DNA of 64,000 bases, from positions 934,001 through 998,000 of the forward strand of contig NZ_AKVN02000001.1 of NCBI RefSeq assembly GCF_000271485.2. Reading direction: 5' to 3'. Positions 7,082-35,254 of the stretch are shown here, piece after piece. The notes under the pieces are model-generated. The model saw nothing but the letters and a program-made list of their open reading frames with translations. It was not told the origin of the DNA and ran no database searches. Made by a program: the position numbers and the translations under genes. The stretch's first letter is position 1; each line of letters opens with the position of its first letter. Origin of the DNA: Pelosinus fermentans DSM 17108 (GTDB lineage: Bacteria > Bacillota > Negativicutes > DSM-13327).

Positions 7082-8281
7082 ATGCCTAAATTATCAATTT
7101 GTATTCCAACCTATAATCGAGCAATAGACTTAAGAAGGTGTCTTGAATCAGTGTTAAGTACTCAAGATAGGGATATTGAGGTTGTTGTGCAAGATAATTG
7201 TTCTCCTGATCAGACGGAACAGATTATTAGTTCATTTTGCGACACTAGAATCAAATATTATAAAAATGACAAAAATATTGGAATGGTTTTAAATATAATA
7301 TCTATTATTGAGAAAGCAACTGGGGATTTTATCTTCTTTTTGACTGATGATGATTGTATGCTACCTGGGAGTATCGCTAAAGTTAAAGCCTTTATAGAGA
7401 AAGGGGTTGACTGTTTTACCACGGATGCAATTATGTACTTGGAAAAACAGAAACAAGCGAATACTTATAGTTATTTTAATAGTAATATTATTACTTGTCA
7501 TGAAGATAAAGAAAAAATCACACAGATATTTTTGTCATCACATATATTATCTAGATGTTGTTTTAAAAGAAATCTAATTGATATTGAATTTTTAAAAGTA
7601 CATGGTGATAATTGGTACCCTCACATGCTGATAGTACTTTTGTTTTATTTGCGTTCAGCAAGAATAGGATATCTTGCTGAACCAATAGTTATGCACACAT
7701 GGGAAAATGAGACGTTTTGGGGTGTGTCGCCTTATAATTTTAAAGAGTTACATCAAGGTCAGGTTAATATCATTATGTCAGTGTATCCACAAATTGATGA
7801 AGAAATGTTTAATTGCCTAGTCTATAATTTTTCTATAATTAAGGGTTATATTCATGAAGATTTTAATGAAATTTTAACAGTTGAAAAAAAGAAGGAAATA
7901 TTGTATGAACTAAAAAAGATAGAAATAAAAAAACAAAATAGTGAAGTAAACGCGAGTATATTGAAAATAGCTAATAAAAAAACGTTTATATGGGGTACAG
8001 GTAAGGCAGCACAATATTGTTATGATGTATTATTAAAGCGTGGTTTGGGCGAAATAGTCATTGGATTTATTGAGAATAATCCATTAAAGTGGAATAGTTG
8101 TTTCAATAAGAAGAAAATATATTCACCTAGTGCCTTGCATGACATAAAAGATACATGTATGGTACTTATAGGGTCAATGTATTATAGTGAAATTGGTATT
8201 GAGTTGGAGCAGTTAGGATTTGAGAAGGTAAATGATAAGGTCTTTTTATTAAGAAAGGAAACACGACATAACAATAAATAA
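7082..8281 (+). CDS. GT2 glycosyltransferase with C-terminal Rossmann-like module
   Basis: Residues 1-230 are a GT-A fold transferase of family GT2: ICIPTYNRAIDLRRCLES at the start, NCSPDQTE nucleotide-binding region, and FLTDDDCML as the metal-binding acidic motif near residue 95. From about residue 295 to the end lies a separate module (FIWGTGKAAQYCYDVL, then GFIENNPLKWN and VLIGSMYYSEIGIELEQLGF) shared with three other proteins in this cluster. It presumably transfers a sugar to flagellin or a surface glycan. An AAGGGGA ribosome site precedes the ATG. A 101-base gap separates it from the rfb genes. Confidence 0.85.
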   Translation: MPKLSICIPTYNRAIDLRRCLESVLSTQDRDIEVVVQDNCSPDQTEQIISSFCDTRIKYYKNDKNIGMVLNIISIIEKATGDFIFFLTDDDCMLPGSIAKVKAFIEKGVDCFTTDAIMYLEKQKQANTYSYFNSNIITCHEDKEKITQIFLSSHILSRCCFKRNLIDIEFLKVHGDNWYPHMLIVLLFYLRSARIGYLAEPIVMHTWENETFWGVSPYNFKELHQGQVNIIMSVYPQIDEEMFNCLVYNFSIIKGYIHEDFNEILTVEKKKEILYELKKIEIKKQNSEVNASILKIANKKTFIWGTGKAAQYCYDVLLKRGLGEIVIGFIENNPLKWNSCFNKKKIYSPSALHDIKDTCMVLIGSMYYSEIGIELEQLGFEKVNDKVFLLRKETRHNNK

Positions 8282-24632: not shown

Positions 24633-25682
24633 ATGCAGCCAATTAAAATGCAACAATTTGCGATAGGTAAAGAATATTGTCCCTTTGTCATAGCAGAAAT
24701 GTCTGGAAATCACAATCAATCACTAGAACGAGCATTGGCAATTGTGGATGCGGCGGCAGATTGTGGCGTACAGGCTCTCAAGTTACAGACATACACAGCA
24801 GATACGATGACCATTGATATTGAGGATAAAGAATTTTTTATTGATGATTCTGAGAGCTTGTGGAAAGGCAAATCTCTTTACAATTTATATCAGGAAGCTT
24901 ATACGCCTTGGGAATGGCATAAACCAATTTTTGATCGCTGCCGTGAGCGAGGGATGATTGGCTTTAGTACTCCCTTTGATGAAAGTGCTGTTGATTTTTT
25001 AGAATCTCTGAATGTATCTTGCTATAAAATAGCTTCTTTTGAAATGACAGATTTGCAGTTGATTCGAAAAGTGGCTGCTACCGGTAAGCCCATGATCATA
25101 TCTACGGGGATGGCAACTGTGGCAGAGATTGATGAGACGGTACGGGCAGCCAGACAAGGGGGATGCCAGGATCTTATTTTGCTTACATGTACTAGTACAT
25201 ATCCCGCGACACCAGCCAATACCAACTTAATGAAGATTCCTCATATGAAGGATTTATTCTCCTGCCAGGTGGGCTTGTCTGATCATACCATGGGGATTGG
25301 CGCAGCGATTGCTAGTATCGCATTAGGAGCGACTGTTATCGAAAAACATTTTACGCTATCAAGAGCCGATGGTGGTGTAGATTCCGCTTTTTCGTTAGAA
25401 CCTGCAGAAATGGCAGCATTGGTTACAGAAAGCGAACGGGCTTATCAGGCACTGGGGCAAGTTAGTTACGGCCCGAGTAAGGCAGAGCAAGCATCTTTAC
25501 AACATCGAAGATCCTTATATGTAGTAGAAGATATTCAGGCGGGTGAATTGTTTACCAAGCATAATGTACGGGCCATTCGACCTGGATTAGGTCTGCCGAC
25601 GAAATATTTAGATTTAGTCATTGGTCGAAAAGCAAAAGAGGATGTGGGGCGAGGTACACCTGTGAGTTGGGAAATACTGTGA
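24633..25682 (+). CDS. pseI: Pseudaminic acid synthase
   Basis: Condenses 2,4-diacetamido-2,4,6-trideoxy-L-altrose with phosphoenolpyruvate to pseudaminic acid. The NeuB TIM barrel starts with CPFVIAEMSGNHNQSLERAL and contains ALKLQTYTADTMT, GFSTPFDESAVDFL, KIASFEMTDLQLI, ISTGMATVAEI and VGLSDHTMGIGA; the metal-binding and substrate histidines are in EKHFTLSRADGG. The SAF antifreeze-like domain is at the C terminus (RRSLYVVEDIQAGELF onward). Last gene of the island. A CGGAGG ribosome site precedes the ATG; the 133-base leader holds a weak GC-rich stem near 24577-24600. Confidence 0.94.
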   Translation: MQPIKMQQFAIGKEYCPFVIAEMSGNHNQSLERALAIVDAAADCGVQALKLQTYTADTMTIDIEDKEFFIDDSESLWKGKSLYNLYQEAYTPWEWHKPIFDRCRERGMIGFSTPFDESAVDFLESLNVSCYKIASFEMTDLQLIRKVAATGKPMIISTGMATVAEIDETVRAARQGGCQDLILLTCTSTYPATPANTNLMKIPHMKDLFSCQVGLSDHTMGIGAAIASIALGATVIEKHFTLSRADGGVDSAFSLEPAEMAALVTESERAYQALGQVSYGPSKAEQASLQHRRSLYVVEDIQAGELFTKHNVRAIRPGLGLPTKYLDLVIGRKAKEDVGRGTPVSWEIL

Positions 25683-25741
25683 TGCTATGGTGTTGTTCAA
25701 GATGTTTTTAGTAAAGGAACGCATTATAGGAGTCTTTTTTC

Positions 25742-25770
25742 TTGCAATTTATTTCTAATAAGCTTATAAT
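25742..25770 (+). promoter_or_regulatory. Strong sigma-A-type promoter of the structured RNA
   Basis: TTGCAA at 25742-25747 and a perfect TATAAT at 25765-25770 are separated by 17 bases. Transcription would begin near 25777, just ahead of the first paired segment of the RNA candidate. Confidence 0.7.
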
Positions 25771-25776
25771 ATAGGT

Positions 25777-26030
25777 TAAGAACCTATTGCTTAGGTCTGT
25801 GGTTGAAAGTCGAGGCCAGTCGCAGGCGAAACGATCCACATAAGGAGTCCAAAGCGGCTCTGAGCATGGTGCGGTTTAGGGGTAAGTCCTGCCGAGTTAT
25901 TAGCTACGTCAGCTAGATTCGAGAGTGGCAGTAGTGAGGAGATTGATTTCTTATTAGCGAACCTTCCAGCAGGCGGGTGTGGGGGCAAAGACCAGGTCAG
26001 CTAAGCAGTGTGGTCCTTTAGAATTCATAA
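25777..26030 (+). ncRNA. Structured RNA candidate, possibly a raiA-motif RNA
   Basis: About 250 GC-richer, non-coding bases directly downstream of a near-consensus promoter. A closing helix pairs TGCTTAG (25788-25794) with CTAAGCA (26001-26007), extended by GTCT with AGAC at 25989-25992. Internal helices include TGTGG/CCACA (25798-25802 with 25836-25840), TAGCT/AGCTA (25901-25905 with 25911-25915, continued by GAGT/ATTC), and CCTGC/GCAGG (25888-25892 with 25969-25973). The family is not certain. Large structured RNAs of the raiA motif occur near raiA-secA in Firmicutes, and this one precedes a zinc-ribbon gene in the same general neighbourhood. A covariance-model search would settle it. Confidence 0.6.
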
Positions 26031-26048
26031 GGTGAGGGGATTTCTTTA

Positions 26049-26342
26049 ATGGCTTTTCAGGACAAAACTCTAAAATGTAAGGACTGTGGCGTAGATTTTG
26101 TGTTTACAGCAGGAGAGCAGGAGTTTTACGCAGAAAAGGGATTTGAAAATGAGCCTGCACGTTGTCGCGAGTGTCGCGATGCGAAAAAACGCAGTCGCGA
26201 AGGTGGCGAACGTCAAACATCACAACGGGAAATGCATGAGGTGATTTGTGCTGGATGTGGTATTACTACACAAGTGCCATTTAAGCCTCGTAACGATAGA
26301 CCGGTTTATTGCCGGGAATGCTTCACAGCGCAAAGGTCATAA
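26049..26342 (+). CDS. Small zinc-ribbon protein (CxxCx-type, possible nucleic-acid binding)
   Basis: 97 aa with two zinc-ribbon halves: KCKDCGVDF and RCRECRDAKKRS in the first part, and CAGCGITTQV and YCRECFTAQ at the C terminus, giving four C-x2-C pairs. The basic linker (KKRSREGGERQ) suggests nucleic-acid contact. This family is common in Firmicutes but has no settled function. It is preceded by the structured RNA candidate and ends at a strong terminator, so it may form one transcript with that RNA. GGTGAGGGGA serves as the ribosome site. Confidence 0.8.
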   Translation: MAFQDKTLKCKDCGVDFVFTAGEQEFYAEKGFENEPARCRECRDAKKRSREGGERQTSQREMHEVICAGCGITTQVPFKPRNDRPVYCRECFTAQRS

Positions 26343-26351
26343 GTACGCAGC

Positions 26352-26382
26352 ACTCGGATGAGAAATCATCCGAGTTTTTTTG
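26352..26382 (+). terminator. Rho-independent terminator after the zinc-ribbon gene
   Basis: ACTCGGATGA pairs perfectly with TCATCCGAGT across a GAAA tetraloop and runs into seven T residues. Confidence 0.88.
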
Positions 26383-26466
26383 TTGTATAAAGTAAGTGAG
26401 AACTGCCATTGGTGTGAGGTCTTGCAGCTTCGTACATGAAGATTGGTCTTGTTAAAGAATAGACGT

Positions 26467-26500
26467 AAAAAAGAGCAGATCCGTAAAGGTTTGCTCTTTT
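26467..26500 (-). terminator. Terminator after the RelE-type toxin remnant
   Basis: The 5' AAAAGAGCA and 3' TGCTCTTTT arms (26469-26477 and 26492-26500) flank a 14-base interior. T-runs occur on both strands, so it can stop transcripts from either side. Confidence 0.6.
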
Positions 26501-26515
26501 ATATTTTATGGCAGG

Positions 26516-26768
26516 CTATCGATATATTTCCCGTCGATGTCCTATATGCAAAGCTAAGATGATAGCTTCGCTTTTTACTATTTCCAGGATAATACGATAA
26601 TCGCCAACTCTGAGCCGCCAAGTATTAGGTATGCCACTAAGTTTTTTTATATCCTTCCCAATTAAGGAAATTTCCAATTCTAAAAGTTCGGTAATAAATT
26701 CGTTTGCAGGTAAATGCATCTAATTTTTCTAAATCTTTTTCGGCTCTTTTGGTAATGACTACTTTCAT
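26516..26768 (-). pseudogene. RelE/ParE-type toxin with a frameshift
   Basis: Ribosome-associated or RelE-like mRNA interferase toxin of the ParE/RelE superfamily. Starting at ATG 26768, the first frame gives KVVITKRAEKDLEKLDAF and TCKRIY; a second frame gives ELLELEISLIGKDIKKLS, NTWRLRVGDYRIILEI and the C-terminal GHRREIYR. The span is 253 bases, one too many for a single frame. Removing one base of the TATTA run near 26691-26700 restores a complete 83 aa RelE-like protein. The start overlaps the antitoxin stop (ATGA). It is either a disabled toxin or a sequencing error in a short run. Confidence 0.75.
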
Positions 26769-27019
26769 GAATCCAAATCTCTTATAAAATCGGTCAGTGG
26801 TCTGACATTACCAGCCTTAATATCTTTTTTTGCTGCGGCAATAGCTGCTAGTGCATTATCAGAAAGTGGTTCGTCATCAAGAGGAACATGATTTAACGCT
26901 TGCAGGAAAACTTGATCAGCTTTTTCAATCAAAAATTCCAGGAAGCGTTTGGCAGCTTCAGTTTCGCCATCAGGTAACGCGTCAATCAGCTTGTATAGAT
27001 CTTGTTTTGCGGTACTCAT
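26765..27019 (-). CDS. Antitoxin of a RelE/ParE-type module
   Basis: 84 aa acidic protein with an N-terminal dimerisation helix (AKQDLYKLIDALPDGET, AAKRFLEFLIEKAD) and the C-terminal toxin-binding tail (DDEPLSDNALAAIAAAKKDI, VRPLTDFIRDL). It matches the Firmicute RelB-like antitoxins usually paired with a RelE toxin. It overlaps the frameshifted toxin by 4 bases (ATGA). An AAGGAGG site lies just upstream of its ATG at 27019. If the toxin is inactive, this antitoxin would be an orphan. Confidence 0.75.
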   Translation of the reverse strand: MSTAKQDLYKLIDALPDGETEAAKRFLEFLIEKADQVFLQALNHVPLDDEPLSDNALAAIAAAKKDIKAGNVRPLTDFIRDLDS

Positions 27020-27103
27020 GTTGGTACCTCCTTGCTGAAAAATATTTTACTTATTGTTACTGTATCATACTCGACCGATAGTAGCAAGGTTAAGGAGAAG
27101 AGA

Positions 27104-27127
27104 GCTGGTGCTTATGAGAGCACCAGC
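27104..27127 (-). terminator. Stem-loop between the two toxin-antitoxin loci
   Basis: GCTGGTGCT (27104-27112) pairs perfectly with AGCACCAGC (27119-27127). On the minus strand it is followed by a C/U-rich tail, and on the plus strand by CTTTT. It probably ends the transcript of the second toxin gene. Confidence 0.5.
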
Positions 27128-27134
27128 CTTTTAG

Positions 27135-27428
27135 TCATTTTATATAGCGTTTTAGAGTGTCCCAGAAGTTTTCACGGGTTCCTGCCATAATGACGATTAC
27201 TTTTCCGCCATCAGTGAGATTGTAAATTCGATATGCGATTTCATAGTTGGTTTTGTTATAGTAGATATCATAGCCATACATGCCAGATAAATCGCCACTT
27301 TTCTCTTCGCCGATATAGGGATCTTTTTGAATCTCTTCTAGTGCATTTTTATATTTTTGCTTCAGGTTCTTATCTTTAAGTTTTTTGAAATATTTTTCGG
27401 CTGGGGGTAAGAAAATAAGCTGATACAT
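27135..27428 (-). CDS. Type II toxin, RelE/ParE superfamily
   Basis: 97 aa toxin with the fold signature FLPPAEKYFKKLKDKNLKQK at the N terminus, ALEEIQKDPYIGEEKSGDLS in the middle, and strands IYYNKTNYEIAYRIY and VIVIMAGTRENFWDTLKRYI at the C terminus. It is one base after the stop of the AbrB-type antitoxin gene, so they are co-transcribed from the promoter at 27875-27904. Unlike the toxin 0.4 kb away it is intact. Its target (ribosome-bound mRNA or gyrase) cannot be told from sequence. Confidence 0.82.
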   Translation of the reverse strand: MYQLIFLPPAEKYFKKLKDKNLKQKYKNALEEIQKDPYIGEEKSGDLSGMYGYDIYYNKTNYEIAYRIYNLTDGGKVIVIMAGTRENFWDTLKRYIK

Positions 27429-27429
27429 A

Positions 27430-27813
27430 TTAATTATCTGTATTGAAGATTTCTTGGAATTTATCTTGGCTGTGGCTGGTCAAAGCAGTTTTATCTGCTT
27501 CGGTGATTAATAATTCGACAGCAGGACGAACCTTTTGGTTCATTTCTGTAAATTTAGTAAGTAATTGTTCGCCTGATAATCCTTGAGCGACAAGATCACT
27601 CAGAATTTCTACAGCAAATTCGCCTGTGAATTCAGGAGAGATGGGTTTTATGATTAACGCCCCATCTTTAATATAGCAATCGACTTCATTAGATATTCCT
27701 AACATTTCATGGAATTTAACAGGAATAGTAATCTGACGTTTGCGGGAAACGCTAATTCTCTTTCTGTCCATGGCTTCACGTCCCAGTATATTTTTAGTAA
27801 GGATTCTCGTCAT
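27430..27813 (-). CDS. AbrB/MazE-type antitoxin
   Basis: 127 aa with a swapped-hairpin AbrB DNA-binding domain: DRKRISVSRKRQITIPVKFH, LGISNEVDCYIKDGALIIKP at about residues 15-57. The rest (SDLVAQGLSGEQLLTKFTEM and beyond) should wrap the toxin. Start chosen at ATG 27813 because a CCGGAGG site lies 9 bases upstream; the internal ATG 14 residues later has none. Pairing of an AbrB-type antitoxin with a RelE-type toxin is known for hybrid type II modules. An inverted repeat upstream may be its operator. Confidence 0.8.
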   Translation of the reverse strand: MTRILTKNILGREAMDRKRISVSRKRQITIPVKFHEMLGISNEVDCYIKDGALIIKPISPEFTGEFAVEILSDLVAQGLSGEQLLTKFTEMNQKVRPAVELLITEADKTALTSHSQDKFQEIFNTDN

Positions 27814-28326
27814 TATTATATACCTCCGGTCAAAGAAAGATGCATGTCAAATTTTCTTTGTTTCTTTGATTTTTATTATACATGTTTTCAGGAGCGATGG
27901 TCAAGGGGCAAGTCTGGTAAGGCTAGGTAAGGGAGCTTGTGTGTGTACTGTTTAATGCCATCGTGCTTGAAATGCAAAACTGTAAGCGATCAAGTAAAAT
28001 CTACCCAAAATGGGCACTAAAAAAGCTAGTATTGATGAGAGAGGGGGAAAAGTGAAATAAGACGGTTACAATACAGGTTATATTTTCGATTCGTTTTAGA
28101 AAGTCTCAGAATGTTTGTATTAGATAAGAGAAGATAATTTTGTGTAGCAGCAGGAATTTACTCTTGTACAATCGAAATAAAGCGACAGGTGTAGTATTAT
28201 GACTGAATTACGGTAATAATGTGTATATATTTCTTATTACGTTGCTGGTAGCTTCCATGCACATCCAGTGGGCAGACTAAAGAGCAGAAAAGCCGTATAT
28301 GGAGAATTGAAAAAGGATGAAGTGAT
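27814..28326. other. Divergent intergenic region between antitoxin and jetD
   Basis: 513 bases without a supported gene. The left end holds the antitoxin leader, an inverted repeat CAAAGAAA (27831-27838) / TTTCTTTG (27853-27860) that could be an AbrB operator, and the minus-strand promoter. I see no convincing promoter for jetD and no repeat in 27910-28310. The GC content and word use look unlike coding DNA. Confidence 0.45.
27875..27904 (-). promoter_or_regulatory. Promoter of the AbrB/RelE toxin-antitoxin operon
   Basis: On the minus strand, TTGACC (27904-27899) and TATAAT (27880-27875) are separated by 18 bases. The predicted transcript starts near 27868 and runs through the inverted repeat before the antitoxin. 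Confidence 0.6.
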
Positions 28327-29361
28327 ATGAGAGTAGTAACAGAGGAGTTAGTGTTGCATTTTTTACAGAAGTATCCTCGTCGCACGATTTCTCTTGTGGA
28401 GATAGAAAATGTAATTCCAGGTGGGATCGAATATCGAGATTTTGCAGATAGTATGAAGAGGTTGATGGCAGATGGAGTCGTGGTTCCGATTTCCAGTCAA
28501 GGGACGAATCAAGCCCAGCCGCCATTGCCGATTCGATATCGCATCCATAAGCAGAAAATGCAGGCTGACTTTTTTGAAAGAATACGAAAACGTCAGCTTT
28601 CTTTGCATCCTGGCATCAATATAGAACATTATTTTAAAGGATCAGAAGCTAAGTGGAATAGGGAGCAGGTATGGCTGGATCAGCTGGATTCTTATCTGAA
28701 GGCTTTTGGTCTGCCAAAGACGGAGACTTCTGTATGGGAGCGTTCCTATGAGATTATGGGAGATGAGAAATGGATTCGGGATGGCGGCGGCGGTGCTTTT
28801 TTGCAGCAGGTTGGTGTATATGAGAAACTGCAAATGATGGAGCTTGCTGAGCCTCTCCGGTTTGCACTCAATCCCAGGCGTATTCAAGATGCGCAATGTT
28901 ATCATTTAATTGTGGAAAATAAAACGACTTATGACGCTTTGGTGGACATTTTGCCTGAGACGGATCTTCTTACGCTGATTTATGGTGCGGGCAAAGGTTT
29001 TTTGAATAGTATCACCCAGTTGGAGAAACAGCTGCATCTGGAAGGTGCTTCGCATACGTTGTATTATTTTGGTGACCTGGATTTTGAAGGCATCACCATA
29101 TGGCACTTATTGAATCAACGTCGCCCGGCCTCTTTGGCTCTGCCCTTTTACCAGGCTTTATTGGACAAGCCGTTTCATCAGGGAAAAGAAAATCAGCGTA
29201 AGGATCTTAGAGCCTATGAACAGTTTTTGCAGAGTTTTTTAGCTGCGGATCAGGAAAAAATCCAGAATCTTTTTGCCAAACAGGGCTATTATCCCCAGGA
29301 AGCCTTATCGATACAGGATTTGCAGCATATGGGGAGGACCACTCAATGGAAGAGTATTTAA
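28327..29361 (+). CDS. jetD: Wadjet/Mks system nuclease subunit JetD (MksG)
   Basis: JetD is the Toprim-like nuclease that cuts plasmid DNA extruded by the JetABC SMC complex. The N-terminal part (LQKYPRRTISLVEIENVIP) resembles the DUF3322-type domain. The C-terminal DUF2220/Toprim half shows LIYGAGKGFLNSI, IVENKTTYDALVDIL with the catalytic glutamate, and YYFGDLDFEGITIWHLL with the D-x-D pair. 344 aa appears complete. It overlaps jetA by 16 bases. Here jetD is first in the locus. Because jetB and jetC are broken, JetD probably has no working partner. Confidence 0.8.
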   Translation: MRVVTEELVLHFLQKYPRRTISLVEIENVIPGGIEYRDFADSMKRLMADGVVVPISSQGTNQAQPPLPIRYRIHKQKMQADFFERIRKRQLSLHPGINIEHYFKGSEAKWNREQVWLDQLDSYLKAFGLPKTETSVWERSYEIMGDEKWIRDGGGGAFLQQVGVYEKLQMMELAEPLRFALNPRRIQDAQCYHLIVENKTTYDALVDILPETDLLTLIYGAGKGFLNSITQLEKQLHLEGASHTLYYFGDLDFEGITIWHLLNQRRPASLALPFYQALLDKPFHQGKENQRKDLRAYEQFLQSFLAADQEKIQNLFAKQGYYPQEALSIQDLQHMGRTTQWKSI

Positions 29362-30824
29362 AAGATACGACGAAAGGTTTTGGGGAACGCTTTAGACGGT
29401 TGGCTATTTTCACGCCTTTATTTTCCCTAAAAGGCAAGCGAAAAAGTGCGGTGCTGCCTTTTGACATTGATTGGTTTAGTTTAGGATTATTGACGTTGCT
29501 CTTTTTCTTTGAAAGCAAGCTGCATCGCCAAGGGAGAAAAGGCCGTCAGGAACTTGCTGATTATTTATATGAAGCAACCCAGGGGCAGATTGGTGCTACG
29601 CGCGCTCACTATGATCTGATCACGGAGACCATTATGGATACCTTTCGGGACCCGATGGGCAAGCGTCATAATGAAGTTTTTTTCAATTGGGAGACTGGTA
29701 CTCAGGAGGTCGTTCAATTTTCCTTATTAAAGACGGATGCTTTTGATCAGGACAATAATCGGCAATATTTTACCTTGGATGAAGCAGGGTTAGAGCTGAT
29801 CTTTGCGACGAAAGAATATTTTAGTGAGTTTCGGATCTCCATTGCCCAGCTTTTAATTCGCAAGCAGCTGGAAAAGGGTGAGTTCGCAAGTGCCTTGCAT
29901 GAAATCCATGAAATGCGCATTGCCGTGCAATCTCTGCGGGATCATATTCAACGTTTGGGATTAGAGGTAACTCGCAATATTATTTCTGATGATACCTATG
30001 GGAAATATGCGAAGACCATCGAAAACGTGTACGAAAGGCTGACACGGGAAGATGAAGAGTTTCGTGAGCTGTATGGTTTTGTTAAGGAAACAACGGCAAA
30101 AATTCAATTTGAGAGCCAGGAACAAGTCGATGAGGAGGCTCGCCTTCAGATTGCTCAGGTGTCGATTGAATTGGGTGAGGTGCACCAACTGCATCATGGC
30201 TTATTGTATAATGTGATGCAGCTGAAGAACAAAGCTTTGGAAGCGGCTCGGCAGGCGCTTTTCTCAGCGGGGATTCAAAGCTTTAATTTTGATCAGGAGA
30301 TTGTATCCAGGATTGTGTCTTCGCCCCTGCCGGAGGAAGCGGTAAAGGGATTGGTACATCCCTTTACCCGATTGCATCAGCAGACCAGTTGGTCTTTGCT
30401 GGCCCTTTTATTTCCCCAGCGGCTGCAGCGAAGCGACCAGGAGGAAGAAACGGCAGCTTATCCTGAGATGGAAGAGGAGGAATATCGTCAGCACACTCTG
30501 CAGCAGGAAGAAAATTTTAGCCGCATTATGGAGGAAGTGATTCAGGTCATGGATGGCAAGGATTCTATGGAATTAAAAGATATGGTATCAGGTTTGCCGG
30601 GAGAGCTTTTGCAGCATCGTTCTTTCTATGATTTTTGGCTGTTGCTCCATCAGCGGAGTCCTGTTGTAAAGGGCGTGGGGGAAGGCAAACATGTTTTGGA
30701 TAAAGCCTTAGCCCTGTTAGGGGATGACATTCTGGAAGTTGGGGAAAAACCAGAACTTTTACAAATGACAGAGCAGTATACACTACAGAATATGTGCTTT
30801 ACGAGGCGGAGGAAAGATGGATGA
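29346..30824 (+). CDS. jetA: Wadjet kleisin subunit JetA (MksF-like)
   Basis: 492 aa, rich in charged helices, matching JetA/MksF kleisins that bridge SMC heads. Landmarks are RRLAIFTPLFSLKGKRKSAV, YDLITETIMDTFRDPMGKRH, FSEFRISIAQLLIRKQLEKG and a long helical region about residues 190-300. The C-terminal third holds QTSWSLLALLFP and the acidic EEETAAYPEMEEEEYRQ. No Walker motifs, as expected for a kleisin. The frame is intact. Its ATG lies inside the end of jetD and its stop overlaps the jetB start (ATGA), as in working Wadjet operons. Confidence 0.78.
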   Translation: MEEYLKDTTKGFGERFRRLAIFTPLFSLKGKRKSAVLPFDIDWFSLGLLTLLFFFESKLHRQGRKGRQELADYLYEATQGQIGATRAHYDLITETIMDTFRDPMGKRHNEVFFNWETGTQEVVQFSLLKTDAFDQDNNRQYFTLDEAGLELIFATKEYFSEFRISIAQLLIRKQLEKGEFASALHEIHEMRIAVQSLRDHIQRLGLEVTRNIISDDTYGKYAKTIENVYERLTREDEEFRELYGFVKETTAKIQFESQEQVDEEARLQIAQVSIELGEVHQLHHGLLYNVMQLKNKALEAARQALFSAGIQSFNFDQEIVSRIVSSPLPEEAVKGLVHPFTRLHQQTSWSLLALLFPQRLQRSDQEEETAAYPEMEEEEYRQHTLQQEENFSRIMEEVIQVMDGKDSMELKDMVSGLPGELLQHRSFYDFWLLLHQRSPVVKGVGEGKHVLDKALALLGDDILEVGEKPELLQMTEQYTLQNMCFTRRRKDG

Positions 30825-31066
30825 ATTATGAACAGCAGGATATTGTAAAGGCTTTTCAACTCTATACTCGTCTGGCAGCCCAAGGGTTTATTGCTGAGGA
30901 AGATGTGGAATATTATCTCATGCACGAGGATGTACAGAGCTTATTAGAACAGTTTGTTCACTATGTAGATGCCATATTGGTTCAACTTGCTGCACCCGCA
31001 GGGAAGAGCGGGAACGGTTTTACCAGGAGAAGTTTGCTGCCCAGGTTCATGTTTTTACTGAATTAG
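30821..31066 (+). pseudogene. jetB: Truncated Wadjet KITE subunit JetB (MksE-like)
   Basis: Starts at ATG 30821 (AGGCGGAGGAAAG site upstream; ATGA overlap with jetA). The first 57 codons match the N terminus of JetB: DIVKAFQLYTRLAAQGFIAE, EDVEYYLMHEDVQSLLEQF, VHYVDAILVQLA. After this point, near 30985-30995, similarity ends and the frame runs out of register through 31066. JetB proteins are normally near 200 aa, so about two thirds are missing. The downstream sequence in another frame is the middle of jetC, showing that a deletion joined the two genes. Confidence 0.75.
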
Positions 31067-32355
31067 TATCTGTGGTGAAAGAACAGTTGTCCTGCAATCG
31101 GACTAGGGTTGAGGAAGAATTGGCAATGACAGCAGGAAGTCATCAACAGTTGCAGCAGGAAATGGAAAAGTGGCAAAAACTGATTACCAAGATGGAAACT
31201 CGAAATGGGAAATTGGAATTTTTGACAGAAGCAGTTGTCGTTACGTCCTTAACAGGAGAAGAGGTTCAATCCTTTCCTTATGAAAGTATCGGGATGGTGG
31301 CTGCTTTATTGGAGGCTATGGAAGCTTCTTATGAAGAGCTGGCAGCCAGTAAACGGATCGTGGAGCAGGCTAAACTTCATTTTGAAAAGTTTTGTCATCA
31401 TTCTAACTTTCAAAATGAAAAAATGCGGCAAAGTATTCTCAATGGTATCCGGCAAAAACAAAGCTATCAGCAATTAGTGATTTGGGAGAAGGAACTAAGA
31501 CACCACATTCAAGGGGCCAATCGAGTGGCCGAGCAAAATATGCAGGCCTACAATGAAGATATTAAACATTTTATTAATCAGCTTCACTTGCATCTCATCA
31601 GTATTTGTGATGAAATGGGGCTGATTCAAAAGATGACAGGGGTAAAAGTTGAGGAGCATTATAAAACGATTTATGAAATAAAGACACCTGTATGGGAAGA
31701 AAGCGCTGCTAAAGAAAAATTGCTGGAGCATTTGGAATGGATGACCGAGCAATTGGCAGCAGATAGTTACAAGCAGGAAGATGGCATGGAGGATAGTAAA
31801 AAGATACGAAAAAATATTGAGAACTGGCTGAGTCCTTCTTATCTCTTTACCCGGATTAGTCCTAATAAGAATTTTACGGTAGGGGTACGCAAAGTGTCCA
31901 ATGATAGCCGCATCAGCAACTATCCTGTGGATTGGGCTACGTCGAATAGTTGGTCGGGGGGAGAAAAGTGGAGCAAGAATATGGCTCTGTTTTTAGGGAT
32001 TCAAAGTTATTTAGTGGAAAAACGCCAGCCCAGCAGGCAGAGTAAGGGTCATAGCCGCACAGTGGTGCTGGATAATCCCTTTGGATAAGCTTCCAGTGAT
32101 CATGTACTAGAGCCGGTGTTCTTTATTGCTGAAAAATTGGGGTTCCAGGTCATTGCTCTTACGGCTCTGGCAGAGGGAAAGTTTCTGCGGGATTACTTCC
32201 CCATTATTTATAGCTGCCGACTGCGATCAGCAGTGGGTGGCGAGACATCCGTCATGAACAAAGAGCTCCATGTCAATCATGCCTTCTTCCAGGATAAATA
32301 CCCTCAAACTCTAACACGCCTTGGGCAAGTCAAACAGATTGAGTTATTGAGCTAA
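30991..32355 (+). pseudogene. jetC: Truncated Wadjet SMC ATPase JetC (MksB-like), 5' deleted and with an internal stop
   Basis: The frame open from about 30991 encodes coiled-coil (EERERFYQEKFAAQVHVF and on) and the C-terminal ATPase head: TSNSWSGGEKWSKNMALFL is the ABC signature and TVVLDNPFG the Walker B. The N-terminal head with Walker A and most of the first coiled coil are absent. A TAA at 32086-32088 interrupts NPFG-ASSDHVLEP, one base change from an AAA or similar lysine codon; the same frame then continues to a normal end at 32355 (FFIAEKLGFQVIALTAL). Two independent lesions make a functional product very unlikely. Confidence 0.82.
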
Positions 32356-32373
32356 ATAAAAAAATGAAAACCA

Positions 32374-32434
32374 ATGAACCGCGAAGATATGAAATAGGTA
32401 TCCCTTTGTGTATTTCGCGTCTTTGCGGTTCAAA
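32374..32434. repeat. Palindromic intergenic repeat, GAAG subtype (copy R1)
   Basis: Left arm TGAACCGCGAAGATATGAAA (32375-32394) and right arm TTTCGCGTCTTTGCGGTTCA (32413-32432) pair with four mismatches in 20. It lies between the jetC remnant and the first binding-protein gene. Confidence 0.75.
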
Positions 32435-32467
32435 GTGTTTTCTTTTAAAAATACTCCTGCTATAATA

Positions 32468-32497
32468 TTGACTAAATATGCATAAACAATGTATAAT
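32468..32497 (+). promoter_or_regulatory. Promoter of the first substrate-binding protein gene
   Basis: TTGACT (32468-32473) and TATAAT (32492-32497) with an 18-base spacer. The surrounding bases (TATTGACTAAATAT and TGTATAATTAT) are repeated before the second copy. Confidence 0.72.
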
Positions 32498-32535
32498 TAT
32501 AAAGAAATTGAGAATGTAAGCAGGAGGGTTATTCT

Positions 32536-33309
32536 ATGTCAAAGAAAATCATGTCATTATTAATTATCGTGGTGCTGATTGCATCATTTGGTTTGGCTGG
32601 GTGCAGTAAAGAGGGAGCATCCACTGCGAAAGTATTGAAAGTGGGTACGGATGCAGGTTTTGCTCCATTTGAGTTTCAAGATGAAAAATCAAAAGAATAT
32701 GTGGGTTTTGATATGGATTTGATTAAAGCCTTAGGTAAGCAAATGGGTTATGAAGTACAAATTCAAAATATGAATTTTGATGGACTGATTCCTGGTTTAG
32801 AAGTGAATAGCATTGATGCAGTTGCTTCCGGTATGACTATTACAGAGGCTAGAAAGCAAAAAGTGAATTTTACCAAGCCTTATTATCAAGCTGGATTAAC
32901 CATCGTAGTGAAAAATGACAATAATACGATTAAGAACTTTAAAGATTTAGAAGGCAAGAAGATTGCAGTGCAGATTGGTACGACTGGTGCTGCAGAGGCA
33001 AAGAAGATTAAAGATGCGCAGGTGCGTGAGTTTAATAATGCTCCCGAAGCCTTTATGGAATTAAAAGCTGGCGGTGTAGATGCCGTTGTGAATGATAAAC
33101 CTGTGAATGAATATTATATTGCCCAATCAGGCAGCAAAGATGCCAAAGCTGTTGGCGAGCCTCTGCAAGCTGAAGAATATGGGATTGCCGTTGCCAAGAA
33201 GAATACAGAGCTGGCAGGTAAATTAGATAAAGCTCTTGATGAGCTGAAAAAAAATGGCGAGTATGAAAAAATATACGTAAAATGGTTTGGTAAAAAGCCA
33301 GGAATATAA
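32536..33309 (+). CDS. Polar amino-acid ABC transporter substrate-binding lipoprotein (copy 1)
   Basis: Family 3 extracellular binding protein, 257 aa. The signal peptide ends in the lipobox GLAGC near residue 23, so it is lipid-anchored outside the cytoplasmic membrane. Ligand-binding landmarks: VGTDAGFAPFEFQDEKS, GFDMDLIKALGKQMG, ASGMTITEARKQKV, VQIGTTGAAEAKKIKD and VDAVVNDKPVNEYY. It is the first of three paralogues followed by one permease and one ATPase. Own promoter just upstream. The ligand is a polar amino acid by family; its identity is not readable. Confidence 0.9.
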   Translation: MSKKIMSLLIIVVLIASFGLAGCSKEGASTAKVLKVGTDAGFAPFEFQDEKSKEYVGFDMDLIKALGKQMGYEVQIQNMNFDGLIPGLEVNSIDAVASGMTITEARKQKVNFTKPYYQAGLTIVVKNDNNTIKNFKDLEGKKIAVQIGTTGAAEAKKIKDAQVREFNNAPEAFMELKAGGVDAVVNDKPVNEYYIAQSGSKDAKAVGEPLQAEEYGIAVAKKNTELAGKLDKALDELKKNGEYEKIYVKWFGKKPGI

Positions 33310-33337
33310 CCTGATAAAAGTATAATGTATACATTGC

Positions 33338-33365
33338 GGGACTGGGTGAAAACCGGGTCCCTTTT
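33338..33365 (+). terminator. Terminator after binding protein copy 1
   Basis: GGGACTGGG and CCGGGTCCC form an imperfect stem around TGAAAA, followed by a short TTTT. Confidence 0.6.
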
Positions 33366-33387
33366 GCTATATTCTATAAAAAAAGTA

Positions 33388-33417
33388 TTGACTAAATATC
33401 CAAGGCGTATGTATAAT
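33388..33417 (+). promoter_or_regulatory. Promoter of the second substrate-binding protein gene
   Basis: TTGACT (33388-33393) and TATAAT (33412-33417), 18-base spacer. It is almost the same promoter as before copy 1, so gene and promoter were duplicated together. Confidence 0.72.
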
Positions 33418-33463
33418 TATGAACATTACAAGATTACAAACAAATAGCGGGAGGAAAGAAAAA

Positions 33464-34231
33464 ATGTCTAGAAAAATACTATCCTTGTTCATAATTGGAA
33501 TATGTATCTTATCTTTAGGATTGGTAGGCTGTGGTAAGCAGGAAGCGAAACCGGCCAAAGTTTTGAAAGTCGGATCGGAAGCGGCTTTTGCTCCTTTTGA
33601 GTTTCAAGATGAGAGTACAAAAGAATATGTGGGTTTTGACATTGATTTAATTAAAGCCATTGGCAAGCAAATGGGTGCCGAAGTACAGATTCAGAACATG
33701 GGATTTGATGGATTGATTCCTGGTTTAGAGGCTAACAGTATTGATTTGGCTATTTCAGGAATGACGATTACAGAAGAACGAGCCAAGAAAGTAAGTTTTT
33801 CTAAGCCTTATTATAAATCTGGTTTGACGATGGTTGTAAAAACTGATAATACGAGCATTCAGTCTTTCAAAGATTTAGAAGGCAAAAAGATTGCTGTTCA
33901 ATTAGGTACGACTGGCGCAGATGAAGCTAAAAAAGTAAAGGATGCACAAATTCGTGAGTTTAACAGTGCTCCAGAAGCCTTTTTAGAGCTTAAAGCTGGT
34001 GGTGTTGACGCTGTTGTAAATGATAAACCGGTAAATGAATATTATATTGCCAAAACCGGCAGTAAAGATGCTAAAATGGTCGGTGAACCTCTAACTGCTG
34101 AGGATTATGGTATTGCAGCTTCAGGTAAGAATAAAGAGCTGATTGACCAAGTTGACAAAGCATTGGAAGAATTAAAAAAGAACGGCGAATATGAAAAAAT
34201 TTACGTAAAATGGTTTGGTAAAAAACCCTAA
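33464..34231 (+). CDS. Polar amino-acid ABC transporter substrate-binding lipoprotein (copy 2)
   Basis: 255 aa from ATG 33464, chosen because the GGGAGG site is 10 bases before it and the start matches the paralogues (MSRKILSLF); an in-frame ATG at 33419 lies at the promoter -10 region and cannot be used. Lipobox GLVGC. Binding-protein landmarks: VGSEAAFAPFEFQDEST, GFDIDLIKAIGKQMG, ISGMTITEERAKKVSF, VQLGTTGADEAKKVKD and VDAVVNDKPVNEYY. Very similar to copy 1 throughout. Confidence 0.9.
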   Translation: MSRKILSLFIIGICILSLGLVGCGKQEAKPAKVLKVGSEAAFAPFEFQDESTKEYVGFDIDLIKAIGKQMGAEVQIQNMGFDGLIPGLEANSIDLAISGMTITEERAKKVSFSKPYYKSGLTMVVKTDNTSIQSFKDLEGKKIAVQLGTTGADEAKKVKDAQIREFNSAPEAFLELKAGGVDAVVNDKPVNEYYIAKTGSKDAKMVGEPLTAEDYGIAASGKNKELIDQVDKALEELKKNGEYEKIYVKWFGKKP

Positions 34232-34283
34232 TCCAATCATCGTACATAAAGACAAAAAGAACACACCCCGTCACTGCGTGCCA

Positions 34284-34308
34284 CCCCTCTCAAGAGGGGA
34301 TTTTTTTT
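34284..34308 (+). terminator. Terminator after binding protein copy 2
   Basis: CCCCTC and GAGGGG pair around TCAA and are followed by an A and eight T residues. Confidence 0.85.
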
Positions 34309-34345
34309 ACTCTTCGCATCTTCGCGTTTCAAAAGGGTTTATTTT
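34309..34345. repeat. Half copy of the palindromic repeat, GAAG subtype (H1)
   Basis: Only the right arm is present (CTTCGCATCTTCGCGTTTCA with the tail AAAAGGGTTTATTTTTG), directly after the terminator T-run. No left arm is seen upstream. The tail resembles that of copies R2 and R6. Confidence 0.6.
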
Positions 34346-34403
34346 TGTCACTCGAAGAGTGGACATTTAATAAAGTGTATTATTTTGATAATACAAAAAA
34401 TGC

Positions 34404-34431
34404 TTGATGATTCAGAAAAAAGATGTAAAAT
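34404..34431 (+). promoter_or_regulatory. Promoter of the third substrate-binding protein gene
   Basis: TTGATG (34404-34409) and TAAAAT (34426-34431) with a 16-base spacer. It differs from the promoters of copies 1 and 2, so copy 3 may be regulated separately. Confidence 0.5.
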
Positions 34432-34474
34432 AGTAGAAGGTAAACAAATAGAGTTGTTATGGGAGGTTATTTGA

Positions 34475-35254
34475 TTGTCGAAAAAAATGCTGAGTTTGAT
34501 GGTAGTCGGAATTTTGGTATTATCCTTGGGTTTAGTTGGCTGTGGTCAGAAGGCTGCAGATACGGACAAGGCCAAAGTACTTAAAATTGGTGCAGAGATG
34601 ACATTTCCGCCTTTTGAGTTTCAGGAAGAGGGCAATAAAGAATATGTTGGCTTTGATATGGATTTGGCAAGAGCAGTGGCAAAGCAAATGGGCTACACTG
34701 CAGAAATTCAAAACATTGGTTTTGATGGTCTGATTCCTGCATTGGAAGCAGGCAATATTGATATGATCGTATCCGGTATGAGCATTACAGAAGAACGTAG
34801 TAAAAAAATAGCGTTCTCCAAACCTTACTATAAATCTGGTTTGTCCATTGTAGTTAAAGGGGACAATAATTCGGTTGCTAGCTTTAAAGATTTAGAAGGT
34901 AAAAGAATTGCTGTACAAATTGGCACCACAGGTGCTGAAGAAGCTAGAAAAATAAAAGATGCAAATGTACGGGAATACAATAGCAATTCCGAAGCATATA
35001 TGGAACTAAAAGCTGGCGGTGTGGATGCAGTAGTGAATGATCTGCCAGTGAATGAATATTACTTAACAAAAAGCGGCGAGAAAAATGCCAAAATTGTTGG
35101 CGATATCGTCAATGCCGAGGAATATGGCATGGCTGTAACGAAGAAAAACACGGAGCTAGTGGAAAAAGTAAATAAGGCAATCGATGAGTTAAAGAAAAAC
35201 GGCGAATACGAAAAAATTTATGTGAAATGGTTTGGTAAAAAACCACAACTATAA
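34475..35254 (+). CDS. Polar amino-acid ABC transporter substrate-binding lipoprotein (copy 3)
   Basis: 259 aa beginning at TTG 34475, chosen because it gives MSKKMLSLM, which aligns with both paralogues, and has GGGAGG 8 bases upstream. Lipobox GLVGC. Landmarks: IGAEMTFPPFEFQEEGN, GFDMDLARAVAKQMGY, VSGMSITEERSKKIAF, VQIGTTGAEEARKIKD and VDAVVNDLPVNEYY. It is more diverged from copies 1 and 2 than they are from each other, and has its own promoter. It ends just before a large palindromic terminator. Confidence 0.9.
   Translation: MSKKMLSLMVVGILVLSLGLVGCGQKAADTDKAKVLKIGAEMTFPPFEFQEEGNKEYVGFDMDLARAVAKQMGYTAEIQNIGFDGLIPALEAGNIDMIVSGMSITEERSKKIAFSKPYYKSGLSIVVKGDNNSVASFKDLEGKRIAVQIGTTGAEEARKIKDANVREYNSNSEAYMELKAGGVDAVVNDLPVNEYYLTKSGEKNAKIVGDIVNAEEYGMAVTKKNTELVEKVNKAIDELKKNGEYEKIYVKWFGKKPQL

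Follow-up and report, generated by a model that had tools for sequence, protein, structure and literature searches.

The SMC motor of Wadjet systems, JetABC, extrudes circular DNA and activates the nuclease JetD. All four subunits and the JetC ATPase have been shown to be needed in Wadjet operons other than the type III operon described here, and JetD is believed to be held in an autoinhibited state before JetABC acts; by itself it cuts only when its concentration is high (PMC10586767). MksG, a homologue of JetD, cuts DNA in vitro when MksBEF is absent, and its acidic residues are needed for cutting (PMC10123090). Damaged or lost Wadjet loci have also been described. Spontaneous loss of Wadjet has been reported in Clostridium cellulovorans, in which a targeted jetABCD deletion increased plasmid uptake/conjugation by about five orders of magnitude (PMC12287153), and the authors of PADLOC presented a Wadjet locus with a frameshifted jetC and discussed pseudogenised defence systems (PMC9252829).

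We analysed a 64,000-nucleotide stretch of Pelosinus fermentans DSM 17108 DNA (the window), in which the locus at 28327-32355 is, judged from its sequence, a type III Wadjet (JetABCD) operon by descent that is incomplete as a system. A protein search of GTDB genomes supplied two intact loci for comparison: L004, from a Pelosinus fermentans MAG (UBA6563), and L005, from Sporomusa malonica, with JetA proteins 95% and 67% identical to that of the window, respectively. The features of the locus are as follows:

26381-32445, no strand: strain-variable island (toxin-antitoxin modules and Wadjet); five Pelosinus relatives are without it
28327-29361, + strand: intact type III jetD (344 aa), encoding a Toprim nuclease that resembles Topo VI-A by profile matches and fold search
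29346-30824, + strand: jetA (type III kleisin-like subunit), intact, 492 aa
30821-30984, + strand: jetB remnant, first 54 codons and 2 bases, by profile match and comparison with L004
30984-30985, + strand: deletion joint, 3605 bp gone (L004 11640-15244), by base-by-base comparison with L004
30985-32085, + strand: jetC remnant, codons 1015-1381, comprising the coiled-coil end and the C-terminal head up to Walker B (VVLDNPFG)
32086-32088, + strand: in-frame TAA interrupting jetC at codon 1382, where both intact relatives, L004 and L005, have a sense codon
32089-32355, + strand: jetC tail, codons 1383-1470 and the original stop, severed from the upstream part

The genes lie in the order jetD-jetA-jetB-jetC, all in the same direction, and both the order and the overlaps match those of L004, L005 and the other loci of the class. 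The jetA and jetD frames overlap by 16 bases. Past 30984, the jetB frame runs out of frame inside jetC to a stop that ends at 31066, and the jetC remnant is missing Walker A, the N-terminal head and the middle of the protein. The neighbours of the operon are toxin-antitoxin genes, one set of ParE type (26516-27019) and one AbrB/MazE-like with ParE-like (27135-27813), both on the - strand. L004 has the same flanks and carries the island, with other genes where the window has this second toxin-antitoxin pair; in L004, a 56-bp repeat of the zinc-ribbon gene's terminator brackets the first pair (at about 7349-7404 and 7958-8012). The island is flanked by a zinc-ribbon protein gene on one side and three consecutive amino-acid-binding proteins of an ABC transporter on the other. 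These three (32536-35254) are tandem paralogous lipoproteins, about 70-77% alike in DNA, and are conserved in tandem in several Pelosinus genomes. At the right island edge (32380-32460) we observed a dispersed palindromic repeat, AACCGC...GCGGTT, with 21 further partial copies in the genome; sequences like it also occur in the Wadjet-free site of two relatives (G004 and G006).

Each of the four pieces matched a PADLOC type III profile (PDLC00592, 00566, 00575 and 00582 for JetD3-JetA3-JetB3-JetC3), as expected from the initial annotation, which had called the locus a decayed Wadjet operon without database searches. The jetD product matched JetD3 over positions 3-344 of 346 (6.6e-103), with a PF09983 match above the cut-off, and the jetA product matched JetA3 over positions 4-499 of 503 (3.2e-192). 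These near-whole matches bear out the view that jetD and jetA are intact. The locus thus has a Toprim-domain JetD nuclease, a JetA kleisin-like subunit and a co-directional four-gene operon with jetD first. It has no full JetB (KITE) subunit, the jetB remnant matching only positions 1-55 of 247 in JetB3 (4e-12). Nor does it have a JetC SMC ATPase with Walker A, signature and Walker B: codons 1-1014 are gone and a TAA follows Walker B. The JetC3 profile matched positions 1048-1383 of 1472 before the TAA (2.5e-98) and 1395-1471 after it (3e-40), and a read-through search of the whole genome found JetC3 only once, over positions 1024-1471 and with one TAA inside the match. JetA, JetC3 and JetD_C each match the 5,027,115-base assembly once, always in this locus, and a second match to any of them was not found.

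The early reading had also proposed a deletion across jetB and jetC and suggested looking for an intact copy in a close relative. L004 is such a copy, with complete jetD (344 aa), jetA (492), jetB and jetC, the last carrying Walker A (ENGGGKT), signature (SWSGGE) and Walker B (VVLDNPFG), and alignment to it gave the deletion ends. The joint at 30984|30985 lies opposite L004 positions 11639 and 15245, so that 3605 bp are missing from the window: in L004 numbering, three quarters of jetB and jetC codons 1-1014, leaving 54 jetB codons and 2 bases. The open frames, the out-of-frame fusion of jetB into jetC and the TAA at 32086-32088 were all as first described, as was a jetC that lacks its N-terminal head and Walker A and is stopped past Walker B. 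Two details required adjustment: jetB does break early, but it matches for 54 codons (30821-30984) rather than about 57, and the fusion lies at 30984|30985 rather than near 30990. We found no microhomology or repeats at the joint; because its ends share no bases, the deletion looks like the product of illegitimate joining. The TAA at 32086 is a second lesion, independent of the deletion, because jetC codon 1382 is a sense codon in both L004 and L005.

To place the damage in its class, we surveyed 381 Negativicutes genomes, of which 21 had a JetA3 match. Besides the window and L004, 17 type III loci were fetched (one, in G297, appears to be L005's own genome, and partial contig-end matches in G273 and G282 were left out), and in all of them the frames of D, A, B and C are full length. 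Three JetC matches contain stops, which were rejected as decay since they lie upstream of the JetC start, as was a stop in one JetD match that sits at the end of the gene. No recurrent type III Wadjet decay was seen among these 17 loci, and all 18 other loci keep the four jet genes together. Since the genes are full length in every other locus examined, four full subunits are the normal state and the damage is, on the sequences compared, private to this strain among those loci rather than a form of the system. In the five Pelosinus relatives whose two flanks share a contig, there is no island and the flanks lie 20 to about 210 bp apart. Trees of the flanks split G004/G006 from the rest and did not order the other genomes, so they do not decide between gain and loss of the island in the genus. 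On plasmid records, the JetA search gave only a 27% match, on a Pontibacillus replicon of 898 kb.

We consider it highly probable that a type III Wadjet operon was recently inactivated in this Pelosinus lineage by a deletion and a nonsense codon, and the Wadjet system of this strain is very probably dead, and recently so. Compared with L004, the 3605-bp loss took away three quarters of jetB together with jetC codons 1-1014, and the separate nonsense codon cuts the remaining JetC after Walker B. Plasmid restriction by this route would be lost in the strain because JetC lacks Walker A, JetB is incomplete and the genome holds no second copy. JetD, if made, would stay idle in its autoinhibited form, and jetD and jetA would be intact only because the time since the break has been too short for decay. 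As causes of the loss, selection against the restriction of plasmids (the cost suggested in the initial annotation), drift once exposure to plasmids had ended, and chance are all possible.

Comparison with L004 allowed us to estimate the age of the break. Between the window and L004, dS and dN/dS were 0.17 and 0.23 for jetD, 0.24 and 0.09 for jetA, 0.40 and 0.115 for the jetC remnant before the TAA, and 0.37 and 0.013 after it. When amino-acid changes were polarised with Sporomusa, the broken and intact branches had 7:6 in JetD, 3:2 in JetA and 5:4 in the JetC remnant; changes on the broken branch are no faster than on the intact one. All residues invariant in the other loci of the class are kept (107/107 in JetA, 22/22 in JetD and 33/33 in the JetC remnant). 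Under a simple Poisson model, the neutral share of the branch in the JetC remnant had a median of 0.05 and a 95% upper bound of about 0.13, the timing being approximate given few polarised substitutions (9/34 in the JetC remnant) and synonymous divergence that is uneven along the locus. The absence of branch acceleration, the kept invariant residues and a neutral share of at most about 0.13 all fit the recent decay that had been surmised at the outset. Over 24633-35254, synonymous divergence from L004 was 0.09 in the zinc-ribbon gene, 0.17 in jetD, 0.39 in the jetC remnant and 0.41 in a neuB-like gene, and this unevenness suggests recombination between Pelosinus lineages.

An alternative is that the jetD-jetA pair is under selection and has a role that needs neither JetB nor JetC, such as that of a free nuclease or of a partner to a different SMC complex. 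Both frames are open with all their invariant residues and have low dN/dS (0.23 and 0.09), and the activity of MksG without MksBEF in vitro gives a precedent (PMC10123090). However, the dead jetC remnant is as well conserved (dN/dS 0.115 and 0.013), with changes no faster than in the intact relative, and the conservation therefore reflects recent loss. At most 13% of the branch was neutral, and at that bound fewer than two stops are expected in jetD and jetA, so their intactness needs neither selection nor a retained function. This agrees with the original proposal that the pair is intact through recency. The four genes also stay together in all 18 other loci, and we regard a selected jetD-jetA pair as very unlikely. 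It is less probable still that JetD, with JetA or with the 54-residue JetB N-terminus, remains functional without the SMC motor as an orphan nuclease module. The suggestion that function of JetD alone would be new also needs tempering, as in vitro DNA cleavage by MksG without its SMC partners is already on record (PMC10123090).

JetD itself has the acidic residues E197, D250, D252, E254 and E325. E197-N198-K199 and G249-D250-x-D252 are invariant, and both would fit a Toprim metal site. The predicted JetD structure had a mean pLDDT of 91 and a pTM of 0.59. A fold search with this model linked only topoisomerase VI-A and its relatives; the best PDB match was topoisomerase VI-A (E 9.6e-05), with a TM-score of only about 0.36. 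The low TM-scores perhaps reflect two domains placed differently in the model. Sequence searches of JetD and JetC against solved structures returned nothing useful.

We also considered whether both lesions stem from faulty sequencing or assembly, with the operon intact in the strain. The assembly is imperfect, as it contains an unresolved prophage contig. It is nonetheless near-complete, and two independent errors would be needed, a clean 3605-bp deletion with unique flanks and a substitution; moreover, the assembly holds no trace of the missing segment, and the flanking genes show normal identity. Errors of this kind are thus highly improbable. The prophage contig, C2 (L006, 1-18040; 18,040 bp), joins chromosome C1 position 1927190 to 1880950, the ends of a 46 kb prophage (C1:1880950-1927190). 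The joint is a 58-base overlap (C2:11914-11971) that adjoins an integrase gene, and C2 crosses the prophage att joint. Because C2 joins both prophage ends, an excised circle or a tandem copy of the 46 kb prophage was probably present in the sequenced culture. The idea that C2 is a plasmid tolerated through the broken Wadjet was rejected, since the contig consists of prophage sequence that spans the two ends of the prophage itself; the assembly contains no plasmid. The reported size limit of Wadjet is 50-100 kb (PMC10586767), and a 46 kb prophage circle would be near that limit, although a link to the loss of Wadjet is speculation. The prophage also appears, from its translation, to encode a Ku-like protein that binds DNA ends (L006:10206-11024, strand -).

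Programmed or phase-variable excision of a restorable segment can be dismissed as extremely improbable: the right deletion end falls exactly on a jetC codon boundary, a one-in-three chance, but there are no repeats at the joint, nothing in the assembly matches the 3605-bp segment, the jetB-jetC reading frame is lost and there is a second, independent lesion, the nonsense codon.

Recent inactivation makes this strain a natural knockout for an anti-plasmid defence, and the genus also offers a close relative with the operon intact in synteny and others whose site is empty. A comparison of intact, broken and absent loci is therefore ready for asking whether plasmid carriage shifts when Wadjet is lost and whether cells tolerate a JetD that has no partners. 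In other respects, the case is ordinary defence-gene turnover.

The locus resembles type III Wadjet, intact in L004 and Sporomusa malonica L005, in gene order, overlaps and four profile matches, but differs in that jetB and jetC are truncated and only JetD and JetA can be made whole. As in Clostridium cellulovorans, a deletion has hit a Bacillota Wadjet locus, spontaneously in that case; there, however, the whole cluster was gone in a 23 kb deletion in a laboratory mutant, whereas here 3.6 kb was lost inside the cluster in a natural genome (PMC12287153). Like the PADLOC example, this is a Wadjet operon with a broken jetC, but there a frameshift broke a type I system, while our type III locus has both a deletion and a nonsense codon, mapped by comparison with an intact sister (PMC9252829). 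Decayed Wadjet loci and spontaneous Wadjet deletions have thus already been published, and the Pelosinus case is a new, well-mapped further example.
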